Shown here in pieces: positions 53,297 to 57,326 of a stretch of 64,000 nucleotides of DNA. The number at the start of each line of letters is the position of its first letter. Within the stretch, counting starts at the first letter, position 1. The stretch is from Oligoflexia bacterium. Lineage in GTDB: Bacteria > Bdellovibrionota > UBA1018. The notes below the pieces were generated by a model. It worked only from the letters and a program-made list of their open reading frames with translations, was not told where the DNA came from and did not search any database. Where the stretch lies: the NCBI GenBank assembly GCA_031292385.1, contig JARLHE010000006.1, forward strand, positions 62,001 through 126,000, written 5' to 3'. The position numbers and the translations under genes are program-made.

Positions 53297-54850
53297 ATGA
53301 AATTGTTGGTGGTCGGCGGTGCGGGATATGTCGGGGGTACCACTTGTGCCTGGCTTTTGGACCAAGGGCACGAGGTTTGGGTTCTGGACGACCTGTCGAC
53401 CGGGCATCGGGAGGCCGTGCTGGGGTACGGATTTGTCCAAGCCCGGGCTGGCGACCACAAAGCGGTGCTCGAGCTGCTGAAACGGGAAAAATTCAACGGG
53501 GTGATGCATTTCGCGGCCAAATCCCTGGTCGCCGAAAGTGTCGCGAAACCGGATCTTTACCGCGAAAACAACGTCCAGCAGACCCGACAGCTCCTCGAAA
53601 CGATGCTCGAGGCCGGAGTCAGGGATTTTATCTTTTCATCGACCGCCGCGATCTTCGGCGATCCCAGCGTGGACCGGATCACCGAGGATTTGCCCAAAAA
53701 ACCCAAAAACCCTTATGGCGAAACCAAGCTTGAAGTCGAGAAAATGCTCGCCGAGATGGCCGCTCGCGGCCTGCGTTCGGTCGCTCTCCGCTACTTCAAC
53801 GCCGCCGGCGCCGAACCCGGCCAACGGGTCGGAGAATGGCACGAGCCCGAAAGCCATTTGATCCCCCGCATCCTCAAAAGCGTGGCCGAAAACCGTCCCG
53901 CCGAGATCTTTGGAAGCGACTACCCGACGCCGGATGGCACCTGTGTTCGCGATTACATCCATGTTTGGGACCTGGCCGCGGCCCACGAGGCCGCCCTCAA
54001 ACGAATCCTCGCCGCACGTGACGCCAATCCGGAGAAAGGCAGCTTCGAGGCCTTTAATTTGGGCAGTGAAAACGGCTTTTCGGTTCTCGAAGTCGTCGAC
54101 CAATGCGAAAAGGTCGTCGAAAAAAAGATCGTCCGGCAAATGCGCGAACGCCGGCCCGGCGATCCGCCCAGGCTCGTCGCGGATTCTTCGCTCGCCCAAA
54201 AAACACTCGGATTCCGCCCTCAGTTCAGCAAACTTCCCGAAATCATCGGTTCTGCGTGGAAATGGGAGCAGAAGCGGGCACGAAGCAAAACCATGCGCCG
54301 CGCGGTCTTTCTCGACCGCGACGGCACGATCAACGAAGATCCGGGCTATCTTTCCGATCCCGAGCAGTTGCGGCTTTTTCCGGGAGTGGACAAGGCCCTG
54401 GGGAAACTTCACGCCGCGGGTTATTTGCTCGTCGTGGTTTCCAACCAAAGCGGAGTGGGCCGGGGCCTGATCCCCGAAGGAGCGCTCGCTCATATCCACG
54501 CCAAGCTCGATCGGATCCTGGAAACCCACGGCACCCGCATCGATCGCTACGAGCTCTGCCTCCATCACCCTGAGGACGGCTGCGATTGCCGTAAGCCCCA
54601 ACCCAAGCTGATTCTGAACGCGGCCGAAGCGCTCGACGTCGATTTGAAGAAGTCCTACATGATCGGCGATAAGACGTCCGACATCCAAGCCGGAATCCGA
54701 GCCGGCTGCAAAGGCACCCTGCTGGTTCGCACGGGCGAGGGCATAAAATCACGCGAAACCGGGGCCGCCTTCGTCGCGGCGTCCCTGGTCGAAGCCGCGA
54801 ACTGGATTTTGGAACAAGACACTAAAGCGCTAGAAATCGCAGGCTCTTAA
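53297..54850 (+). CDS. UDP-glucose 4-epimerase fused to heptose-bisphosphate phosphatase (GalE-GmhB)
   Basis: About 517 residues in one open frame. Residues 1-330 are an extended SDR epimerase: VVGGAGYVGG, the YGETK catalytic pair and RYFNAAGAEPGQRVGEW. Residues 335-517 are a HAD phosphatase of the GmhB type: MRRAVFLDRDGTINEDPGYL, SNQSGVGRG, the zinc loop CLHHPEDGCDCRKPQPK and MIGDKTSDIQAG. The internal Met at 54292 has no clear Shine-Dalgarno, so this is probably one protein. It would link UDP-galactose supply with ADP-heptose for LPS core, matching the heptosyltransferase operon at 13 kb. The 53285 start is an alternative. Confidence 0.88.
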   Translation: MKLLVVGGAGYVGGTTCAWLLDQGHEVWVLDDLSTGHREAVLGYGFVQARAGDHKAVLELLKREKFNGVMHFAAKSLVAESVAKPDLYRENNVQQTRQLLETMLEAGVRDFIFSSTAAIFGDPSVDRITEDLPKKPKNPYGETKLEVEKMLAEMAARGLRSVALRYFNAAGAEPGQRVGEWHEPESHLIPRILKSVAENRPAEIFGSDYPTPDGTCVRDYIHVWDLAAAHEAALKRILAARDANPEKGSFEAFNLGSENGFSVLEVVDQCEKVVEKKIVRQMRERRPGDPPRLVADSSLAQKTLGFRPQFSKLPEIIGSAWKWEQKRARSKTMRRAVFLDRDGTINEDPGYLSDPEQLRLFPGVDKALGKLHAAGYLLVVVSNQSGVGRGLIPEGALAHIHAKLDRILETHGTRIDRYELCLHHPEDGCDCRKPQPKLILNAAEALDVDLKKSYMIGDKTSDIQAGIRAGCKGTLLVRTGEGIKSRETGAAFVAASLVEAANWILEQDTKALEIAGS

Positions 54851-55631
54851 GCGTCGAGGGCTCAAAACTCGGCAAATGATAGGCGAGAAGCCCTTGCAGG
54901 AAGCGAAAAAGCTCGATGTGCTCCTCTTTTGAAGCCCGTGCGAGCTGGGGCACCTGACGGATCGGCGTCCCGAGGCTCGTATAAAAATCGGCGATCACGA
55001 GCGCGCTGATCTTCAAAACGGAATGCTCGAAGCTCTGGCCCTGGCGCTCACGGACATGCCGGGTTCCTTGCGAACGGCAATTCGGACAAATCCAGCCCGC
55101 ATCGGCCACCATGCCGACCAGGGCCGCCTCGGGCGGGAGCTCTCCCAAGGGGCGCTGGCATTCCATGCACGAGGCGAGCAAGGGCTGGTTTCCGCTCCAC
55201 TGCAAAATTTTTCCGATATAGCCGTTGAGCAGGGCGATTTCGATTCCGGTCCCCTCTTCAAGCCAGGCTAAAGCGTTCGAATGGACCCTGAACAGGTCAC
55301 CGCTGTTCTCGATGCTGGGAGCGACCCGAAGAACGATCTCATTGAGGAGACTGGCGAGTGCAAGCCGGTCAAAATTCCCCCGGAAGCCCTCGAAAGAACG
55401 GCGAATATGGGCTTGCTCCAGGCGCACCAGCTCGGCGTTCGGCTTTTGGACGAAATGCCATTCGCTCGCCGCGAACGGCTCGAGCGCCCCGCCAAAGCGC
55501 CGGGACTGGACCGCATTTCGCGCCATGGCGGAAACAAGCCCATGGTGCTCGGTCAGCGCGGTGACGATCCGATGCCTCTCCTCGAAGGGAATCGATCGGA
55601 GAACGATGGCCAGATCCCGAACTTCTTGCAT
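54822..55631 (-). CDS. recO: DNA repair protein RecO
   Basis: 269 residues from the ATG at 55631 (MQEVRDLAIVLRSIPFEERH); the track's 55715 start overlaps tRNA-Ala on the opposite strand. N-terminal OB fold (HRIVTALTEHHGLVSAMARN), helical middle, and a zinc motif CMECQRPLG..CPNCRSQG. RecO helps RecR load RecA onto SSB-coated gaps. The C-terminus FRFLQGLLAYHLPSFEPSTL is family-typical. The 3' end overlaps the GalE-GmhB gene by 29 bases. No Shine-Dalgarno is obvious, and the promoter must share space with the tRNA. Confidence 0.9.
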   Translation of the reverse strand: MQEVRDLAIVLRSIPFEERHRIVTALTEHHGLVSAMARNAVQSRRFGGALEPFAASEWHFVQKPNAELVRLEQAHIRRSFEGFRGNFDRLALASLLNEIVLRVAPSIENSGDLFRVHSNALAWLEEGTGIEIALLNGYIGKILQWSGNQPLLASCMECQRPLGELPPEAALVGMVADAGWICPNCRSQGTRHVRERQGQSFEHSVLKISALVIADFYTSLGTPIRQVPQLARASKEEHIELFRFLQGLLAYHLPSFEPSTLKSLRFLAL

Positions 55632-55672
55632 ATCTTGTTTATTAGCATAGTTTGGATTAAACGGTATCTCAT

Positions 55673-55748
55673 GGGGCTGTAGCTCAGTTGGTAGAGCGTT
55701 GCGTTCGCAATGCAAAGGTCAGGGGTTCGACTCCCCTCAGCTCCACCA
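55673..55748 (+). tRNA. tRNA-Ala(CGC)
   Basis: A 76-base cloverleaf with encoded CCA. Acceptor GGGGCTG/CAGCTCC, D arm GCTC/GAGC, anticodon arm TTGCG/TGCAA around TTCGCAA with anticodon CGC at 55706-55708, and a T arm AGGGG/CCCCT around TTCGACT. The third acceptor pair is G3-U70, the alanine identity element. It reads GCG codons, which this GC-rich genome uses heavily. Confidence 0.96.
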
Positions 55749-55766
55749 TTTTCAAATGCCAATAAT

Positions 55767-55806
55767 AAAAAAGAGTCGCTGACCGCAGGTTAGCGGCTCT
55801 TTTTTA
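55767..55806 (+). terminator. Terminator of tRNA-Ala
   Basis: AAGAGTCGCT/AGCGGCTCTT (one G-U pair) with an 11-base loop, extended by A/T pairs and followed by six or more T residues. It lies 18 bases past the tRNA. Confidence 0.85.
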
Positions 55807-55820
55807 TTTGTATTTCAAAT

Positions 55821-55843
55821 AGTGCAGCCGAGGGGAGTCGAAC
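55821..55843 (-). repeat. Inverted copy of the tRNA-Ala 3' end
   Basis: Read on the minus strand this is GTTCGACTCCCCTCGGCTGC and ACT; it copies the tRNA's T-arm 3' strand plus acceptor (55726-55747), with 14 identical bases and about two differences in the next six. The copy is inverted and lies just past the tRNA terminator. It may be a remnant of a site-specific integration or a shared arm of the adjacent structured element. Confidence 0.7.
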
Positions 55844-55979
55844 GAGAATTTCCGGCCGCGGCGGACGCGACCTTAAGGAGCGTCCGGCGAGGCAAATCAG
55901 GCAGGGAGGCCTGATTTAGGAAATTGTCCGGCCCGGAGACGACTGAGCGTGACGCGAAGGAGGCGGAGGGCGACTCCCC
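55832..55979. other. Multi-stem structured non-coding element
   Basis: Four perfect stems nest or abut: outer GGGGAGTCG/CGACTCCCC (55832-55840 with 55971-55979), AATTTCC/GGAAATT (55847-55853 with 55919-55925), and inside these CGGACGC/GCGTCCG (55862-55868 with 55880-55886) and AAATCAGGC/GCCTGATTT (55894-55902 with 55909-55917). The strand of transcription is unknown. The ORF track shows only low-quality ORFs here. It could be a structural RNA, a repeat family or a mobile element. Confidence 0.55.
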
Positions 55980-56219
55980 CAGTCGAGTCGAGCGGCCCTT
56001 TTCGTGCGTAGGGTTTATTTCCGACAATCGCGAGGTCTGAGGGCAACACCATCCAGCGGCGTGTCCTAAATCCGACCCTGCTGCTAGGGCCGAATCCCTT
56101 CCTGCTCTCCAATGTCGGGCCTCAAACCCGACACGCTCAGGGGAGAGCCATCTGGATCTGATTCATCTTAAAGCATGATCCCAAGAAATTTGATAAGCAC
56201 CAGGACACGGAGATAGATC
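55980..56219. other. Non-coding stretch before the alarmone synthetase, with a long hairpin
   Basis: TGTCGGG/CCCGACA (56113-56119 with 56127-56133) is enclosed by CTCTCC/GGAGAG (56105-56110 with 56142-56147), giving a two-part hairpin about 70 bases before the GTG start of the synthetase. The rest shows no ORF I would support. Confidence 0.5.
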
Positions 56220-57326
56220 GTGAGCATCGAAGAATACCAAAACCACTTCTTCCCCCATCTCACTCAATTAAGGGAGCTCTTGGAAGAAAAGCTTCAGCGG
56301 CTTGTCGACGGCGAGGGAATCGTCATTCACTCGCTGAACGGCCGAGTGAAGACGCCGGCCAGCCTGGAAAAAAAGCTCGCAAGGCCGGATCGCAACTACC
56401 AGCACCTGCTCGACGTGACGGACCTGCTCGCCTTTCGTGTCATCACCTATTCCGAGGACCTGATTTCCAGCGTAGCCAGGCTGATTGAAAGCACCTTTGA
56501 CGTGGATTACGCGAAGTCGGTCAACAAGCTTCATCACGAGGATCTTCAGAAGTTCGGCTATAGATCGCTTCATTACGTCTGCTCTTTGCCCAAGGATATC
56601 CGGGAAAAAGTCCCACAGCTTGAAAGGCATGTGCGGTTTGAAGTGCAGATCAGGACGATATTGCAACACGCCTGGGCCGAGATCGAACATGACCTCGGCT
56701 ACAAAGCGACGGAACAGCTTCCAAGCGAGTTCCGGAGGCGCTTCAGTCAGATCGCGAGCCTTTTGGAGGTTGCGGATAGGGAGTTCGACTCGATCCGCGC
56801 CGATCTCAAGCATTACGAGTCCAGACTGAATCGCGCGGATCTCGCGGAAGAAAAGGTGGAACTCGACAGCCTTTCGCTGCTGTCGATTTTAGGAAGGGAT
56901 GAAATCTCCAAACTTGATTTGGAAATTTCCGAATTTCTTAACGCCCCGCTCACTGAAAGCGCGTTTTACCCCGATTACCTTCTGCGTGCCATCCGCGCCG
57001 CCGGACTGAAACGAATCGGTGACGTTTTGAAAAGCGCCGGCAGGCAGCGCGAATTCTTCGGCTCGTTTCTTCCCGTCTATTTCGACTTTTCCAAAAATCA
57101 TTGGCGCTTTGACAAAAGCTCCGTTTCCCACGTGCAAAGAGGCTATGGCCTGCTTTTCCTCGCGCATCTTCATATCCTGGAGACGGAGGAGCTTTTCATT
57201 AACAAGGTAAATCGCCTCACCCAATTTTACAGGGAAATTGATTATCCGGACGATCCCGACAGCGCGAAGAACGCCGCGCGGTCGTTGGTGGCGGCACTTA
57301 AGGCGAGCAAGCTGATTCTGGAATGA
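56220..57326 (+). CDS. RelA/SpoT-type (p)ppGpp synthetase domain protein with C-terminal extension
   Basis: 368 residues from a GTG at 56220 with GGAGA upstream. Residues 20-200 form a synthetase domain: GRVKTPASLEKKL (ATP site), VTDLLAFRVI, the FGYRSLHYV substrate loop, and FEVQIRTILQHAWAEIEHDL with the catalytic Glu. There is no hydrolase, TGS or ACT domain, so it is a stand-alone small alarmone synthetase. Residues 205-368 are a helical extension that I do not recognise; SAS proteins of the housekeeping RelQ/YjbM type are about 210 residues. It may make (p)ppGpp, or modify tRNA as toxSAS members do. No antitoxin ORF is adjacent. Confidence 0.82.
   Translation: MSIEEYQNHFFPHLTQLRELLEEKLQRLVDGEGIVIHSLNGRVKTPASLEKKLARPDRNYQHLLDVTDLLAFRVITYSEDLISSVARLIESTFDVDYAKSVNKLHHEDLQKFGYRSLHYVCSLPKDIREKVPQLERHVRFEVQIRTILQHAWAEIEHDLGYKATEQLPSEFRRRFSQIASLLEVADREFDSIRADLKHYESRLNRADLAEEKVELDSLSLLSILGRDEISKLDLEISEFLNAPLTESAFYPDYLLRAIRAAGLKRIGDVLKSAGRQREFFGSFLPVYFDFSKNHWRFDKSSVSHVQRGYGLLFLAHLHILETEELFINKVNRLTQFYREIDYPDDPDSAKNAARSLVAALKASKLILE

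Follow-up and report, generated by a model that had tools for sequence, protein, structure and literature searches.

Results

The window, a stretch of 64,000 nucleotides from an Oligoflexia bacterium of the phylum Bdellovibrionota (GCA_031292385.1, contig JARLHE010000006.1), carries an intact tRNA-Ala gene with its intrinsic terminator, followed on the same strand by a folded element of 148 nt (Table 1). The RecO gene (54822-55715, minus strand) lies on the other side of the tRNA gene, and directly downstream of the element there is a gene for a RelA/SpoT-domain protein of 368 aa (56220-57326). A sequence-only reading had described, past the tRNA terminator, an inverted and nearly exact copy of the T-arm and acceptor strand. 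This copy was recovered (55817-55843, 89% complementary to 55725-55751 over 27 nt), although its extent had been understated: it continues for 59 nt, as far as the centre of the palindrome, and 55725-55843 form one near-perfect hairpin of 119 nt around the terminator, with the terminator loop at its centre (-68 kcal/mol).

The same reading had proposed a 148-base element closed by paired ends, which we also found, GGGGAGTCG (55832-55840) pairing with CGACTCCCC (55971-55979). The predicted fold of the element has a free energy of -76.7 kcal/mol, and for the slightly longer interval 55821-55979 the folding z score is -4.9, none of 200 shuffles being equally stable. Its stems had been called four perfect ones, which is right for P1 and P4 (9 bp each) but not for P2, which has a mismatch, nor for P3 and P5, which have internal mismatches. 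An att duplication had been discounted on the grounds that the copy is inverted; the inverted copy is real, but a direct copy is present as well on the right side (12/13 nt in the window), and as CGACTCCCC repeats the tRNA T-arm in direct orientation, an att-like direct copy does exist in the window. The window element is far above chance, scoring 108.8 bits (E = 4e-22) against the second family covariance model (R2), among whose building sequences it is included.

Table 1. Features of the tRNA-Ala locus, in positions of the window
Feature	Position	Strand	Remarks
Host tRNA-Ala (anticodon CGC), intact	55673..55748	+	ARAGORN; Rfam RF00005, 71.5 bits
A: tRNA T-loop (GTTC) through CCA; source of inverted and direct copies	55725..55748	+	
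Giant palindrome: tRNA 3' part, flank, terminator, inverted flank, inverted tRNA 3' part	55725..55843	+	centre 55785-55787
Intrinsic terminator of the tRNA-Ala gene; doubles as palindrome centre	55764..55808	+	
A': inverted copy of acceptor 3' strand and T-arm	55817..55843	+	89% over 27 nt
Whole folded element, P1-P5, family member	55832..55979	+	CM R1 117.6 bits; CM R2 108.8 bits
P1 5' strand, target-derived (inverted T-arm copy)	55832..55840	+	
Conserved core, putatively mobile, GAGAATTT...GGG	55844..55970	+	
P2 5' strand	55844..55853	+	partner 55919-55928
P3 hairpin	55854..55893	+	
P4 hairpin, 9 bp; usual family loop CASGANG	55894..55917	+	
P2 3' strand	55919..55928	+	partner 55844-55853
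P5 stem region (variable arm)	55931..55970	+	
P1 3' strand and decayed direct T-arm copy (displaced 3' fragment)	55971..55983	+	12/13 nt

Searching the genome beside other tRNAs, as had been proposed with the first description, yielded further copies. BLAST found three copies in all, the two others adjoining tRNA-Arg(TCG) and tRNA-Ser(GCT), and the covariance search raised the number to five with copies at the tmRNA and tRNA-Cys genes. In relatives, copies were found at Leu, Lys, Met, Ser and Arg tRNAs. A first covariance model, built from a MAFFT alignment of 11 copies, gave about 77 matches in 25 of the 55 genomes of the order; a second one, built from 79 copies, identified carriers in 55 of the 291 sampled genomes of Bdellovibrionota, and at least 113 distinct copies of the structured non-coding element are now at hand. 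There are 1-11 copies per carrier, and the set of tRNAs used differs from genome to genome. The suspected tRNA-derived repeat family is thus a family indeed, with copies beside other tRNAs; a tRNA origin applies to the ends only and not to the core.

Covariance searches with strict filters, whose empty answer is weak, returned no copy in 237 genomes from the phylum of a Myxococcales genome and none in 399 from the phylum of a Rhodoferax genome. Two matching genomes were found among the 199 from the phylum of a Planctomycetota genome, one of them a true match and the other due to chance. The true member (L338:1501-1635) lies 124 bp downstream of a tRNA-Asn gene, has a direct copy of its 3' end and reflects either horizontal transfer or bin contamination; the false positive (G312) sits within a coding sequence that reads as isoleucyl-tRNA synthetase. 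A loose sequence-pattern scan of the genome contigs was discarded, nearly all of its 115 matches being due to chance and only L037 and L112 real. Searches of viral, phage and plasmid sequences gave no member. Rfam at the gathering score found only tRNA and tmRNA and held no family for the element, in agreement with the earlier remark that this is no known RNA, and in the open-access literature nothing was found on such an element.

The core of about 125 nt, within an element of about 130 bases, is non-coding and has one conserved multi-stem structure. Testing the stems for covariation had also been suggested, and compensatory changes keep the structure: among 113 distinct sequences, 49 of the 50 pairs carry changes on both sides. 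Covariation amounted to 0.633, compared with 0.187 for shuffled and at most 0.09 for slid pairings, and 86% of the cells are paired, figures that are inflated by the fitting of the 113-sequence alignment to the model. Double changes were already seen in 31 of the 50 pairs when 11 copies were first aligned with MAFFT. The many copies with compensatory changes thereby answer the doubt, voiced at the outset, that this could be a single unconserved copy. Wobble pairs are biased, with 268 G-U against 93 A-C, which identifies the plus (tRNA-sense) strand as the folded one; as judged from the sequences, the bias is compatible with either RNA or single-stranded DNA (ssDNA) as the folded form. In P2 and P5, tandem G-A/A-G pairs occur in place of Watson-Crick pairs. 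Two tRNA-Gln copies, L257 (G099) and L259 (G118), have nearly identical flanks and P5 and differ in P2-P4, which are equally paired in both; this difference is either an exchange of modules or a very fast compensatory change.

A tRNA or tmRNA gene on the same strand lies within 2 kb upstream of 91 of the 116 aligned copies, mostly 49-170 bp away, and a tRNA in any other arrangement accompanies only one of the 116. Copies with no detected tRNA often have a decayed tRNA 3' end alongside. Altogether, 17 kinds of tRNA/tmRNA gene serve as targets. In the closing stem P1, both strands repeat the T-arm of the neighbouring tRNA, the left one in inverted and the right one in direct orientation, and the direct duplicate on the right is there in every well-preserved copy. 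Of 87 distinct copies, 74 have arms that resemble the own tRNA more closely than they do 95% or more of the tRNAs of other isotypes, mean arm identity being 8.25 of 9 positions with the own tRNA versus 5.85 with other tRNAs. On the left, the arm extends to the complement of T54, and the right arm begins at C56; from there the direct copy has a median length of 24 nt and runs up to about 60 nt past CCA in non-tandem copies. A minority of copies has GAGAA in place of the T-loop complement, hence the core can contribute the innermost bases of the arm. In about half of the copies, the inverted copy extends to the palindrome centre, usually the terminator loop, and in the remaining half or so the inverted arm is short (9-21 nt). 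We rejected mimicry of a tRNA minihelix, with both T-stem and acceptor copied, as a general property, since the acceptor part is often absent.

Another minority (L175, L206) uses the border of T-stem and acceptor as its site, and in this subfamily (L206:1195-1333 at the tRNA-Cys gene of G000; L175:1501-1640) it is the acceptor strand, not the T-arm, that gives rise to P1. At tRNA-Leu(CAG) of G050 and G052, the element and its arms (L308, L309) are identical and the spacers wholly different, forming two unrelated palindromes; the spacer is therefore exchanged independently of the element. In one genus, a second palindromic motif, CATCTCGC...CTCACTCACTC...GCTCGATTT, which is possibly another repeat family, was observed at the centre of the palindromes between tRNA and element (spacers L207, L170, L184 and L013).

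Cores that are 81-89% identical were found at different tRNAs: at Gly/Leu and Leu/Met within G040, at His/Leu within G007, at Asn/Leu in G023, at the tmRNA of G000 and a tRNA-Leu of G016, and at tRNA-Gln of G118 and tRNA-Leu of G228. Five such pairs were aligned together with their flanks, and on either side the homology goes no further than the T-loop; over seven pairs with similar cores, 29 of the 37 differences in the P1 arms match the resident tRNA of each copy. Similar cores at different tRNAs, with homology ending at the T-loop, indicate that the core moves and acquires its ends from the target. Within one genus, three genomes (G043, G050, G052) carry the element at tRNA-Leu(CAG) and have a common flank to the right of it, and other species are without it. 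This locus was used for comparison in preference to G115, where the right flank is a recombinase remnant and the empty site is not a clean one. Tandem copies occur, and at L193 the complete unit is repeated exactly behind a tmRNA gene. At tRNA-Gln, the element persists across several species of one genus with its fold retained, which could also reflect a function for the host.

Two enzymes were considered as partners. Among the 55 genomes of the order, neither reverse transcriptase (RVT_1; Fisher p = 0.59) nor Y1 transposase (Fisher p = 0.38) was associated with the element; RVT_1 is lacking in 16 and Y1_Tnp in 10 of the 28 carriers, some of these genomes being incomplete. As neither tracks the element, both were dropped as candidate enzymes, and the same counts set aside an identity as a group II intron, retron or other RT-borne ncRNA and as a REP/RAYT element moved by a Y1 (HUH) transposase.

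Discussion

Taken together, the data make it probable that the element is a non-autonomous, non-coding mobile element of tRNA/tmRNA genes, which inserts at the T-loop and has its ends copied from the target. Insertion would take place at about residues 54-56, and at the border of T-stem and acceptor in a minority; the 3' part of the tRNA would be regenerated upstream, and the displaced 3' part would stay with its native flank on the right. We propose a staggered cut, in which the bottom strand would be nicked within the T-loop and the core, arriving as a folded single strand (RNA or ssDNA) with a putative enzyme acting in trans, would be added onto the freed bottom 3' end. The freed top overhang, composed of the tRNA 3' part, flank and terminator, might then snap back at the terminator hairpin and be copied back to the T-loop nick, giving the inverted arm that is joined to the core. 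The resulting order would be tRNA, flank, terminator, inverted flank, inverted T-arm, core, direct T-arm and native flank. In the roughly half of the copies with a short inverted arm (9-21 nt), the snap-back step is consequently invisible.

An alternative that we consider unlikely is a miniature tDNA island, moved by a tyrosine or serine integrase in trans with the tRNA 3' end as attP. A gene-less circle of tRNA 3' part, spacer, inverted copy and core would have been integrated, and the direct copy on the right would be the ordinary displaced fragment. The islands found by Islander are typically marked by a restored tRNA gene plus a displaced fragment (PMC4383910), and both of these end points are present in our element. 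Crossover in the T-loop is known from the integration site of phage Ms6 (PMC1762012), and islands with large serine recombinases use the same tRNAs in this phylum. However, an attP is target-specific, and in Ms6 vectors, for example, a 26-base core had to be 100% identical (PMC1762012), whereas a single core family is found here in 17 kinds of gene. Both arms switch along with the tRNA and match all these different targets, unlike tDNA islands with one or a few targets per integrase/attP. No integrase gene was found inside the element, and the 49-170 bp that separate most copies from the tRNA are too short for a gene. To our knowledge, no integrase requires an inverted copy linked to a covarying core, and this too weighs against an island.

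It is rather improbable that the element is a structured RNA of benefit to the host, acting downstream of tRNA/tmRNA genes in processing, as a decoy or in regulation, with P1 mimicking the T-arm, and spread by recombination between tRNA loci. Strong selection on the fold, location on the same strand as the tRNA and vertical persistence at tRNA-Gln, where P2-P4 changed and still pair (G099 vs G118), would suit such a role. The patchy occurrence (55 of 291 genomes, 1-11 copies, a different tRNA set in each genome) and the presence or absence at one tRNA within a genus argue against it, as does the strong intrinsic terminator that stands between tRNA and element in many copies, that of the window included; no promoter-like site was found between the tRNA and the element in the window. 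A chance or replication-slippage palindrome beside a tRNA, with no family or function, is refuted by the existence of over 100 homologous copies whose structure covaries, even though template switching can yield long palindromes like those seen in about half of the copies.

Returning to a mobile element with target-copied ends, likeness to known systems is partial. tRNA/tmRNA genomic islands share the target, the site at the T-loop/3' end, the regenerated gene and the displaced 3' fragment on the same strand; unlike them, the element has no genes, measures about 200 bp and carries an extra inverted target copy and a covarying folded core. Integron attC sites and CALIN arrays are likewise imperfect palindromes of similar size with one folded strand, but our element has a sequence-conserved core and tRNA-derived ends and contains neither cassettes nor ORFs. 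On inspection of the aligned copies, the attC boxes R'' (RYYYAAC) and R' (GTTRRRY) were not found at the ends, the right junction being GC|CRA, and no gene-cassette array is present, there being no room for an ORF between tRNA and element and only occasional tandem copies. For lack of both core-site boxes and cassettes, an integron attC site was rejected. In being short, non-coding, palindromic, dispersed and non-autonomous it resembles REP/BIME, ERIC, RPE and MITE-like repeats, from which it differs by its strict location at the tRNA/tmRNA T-loop, its several hairpins and its target-copied ends. A MITE in particular was rejected, as there are no fixed terminal inverted repeats and P1 is specific to each copy, equalling the T-arm of the resident tRNA. 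With eukaryotic SINE-like, target-primed retroelements the element shares a non-coding, structured nature, a variable length of target duplication and a putative partner enzyme in trans, whereas it is bacterial, has no RT association and no tail, and adjoins an inverted target copy. Retron ncRNAs are also structured and closed by inverted repeats (the a1/a2 stem), but here there is no adjacent RT, the closing repeats are target-derived and Rfam gave no match.

The chances are about even that these elements represent a new bacterial class, in which a gene-less folded core with an RNA or ssDNA intermediate would enter the T-loop of essentially any tRNA/tmRNA gene, synthesise its terminal stem from the target, re-program its ends at each jump and leave a working tRNA behind. 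As a mobile element it would be categorically new, with transposition deduced from sequence comparisons and novelty judged against the open-access literature. The usual explanation for integration into tRNA genes is an integrase whose attachment site is fixed. If true, our reading would provide a different solution to safe-site targeting, the ends coming from whichever tRNA is entered, and a new insertion chemistry that combines inverted and direct copying of the target. The Bdellovibrionota, which are bacterial predators, gain a widespread, hitherto unannotated family of structured non-coding elements with more than 100 copies and very strong covariation.

Serine-recombinase islands were found between tRNA-Gln and the element, one of 98 kb with conjugation-like genes (G211) and one of 14 kb with metal-transport genes (G164). 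An HTH-recombinase gene beside the element in four genomes had raised the suspicion that such islands are its autonomous form. This was rejected, since a tRNA 3' remnant and spacer separate island from element, and the island was thus inserted between tRNA and element in a separate event. The direct copy of the element may serve as a spare attachment site for islands (G115). At the end opposite the recombinase, islands of this kind in tRNA genes encode a small protein with an HTH, in which the PF07508 Recombinase domain is limited to its first half and a catalytic domain is missing (L280:14280-16085 and L279:851-1600 in G211; L277 in G164; L220 in G042; L287 in G028), which is possibly a directionality or regulatory partner.
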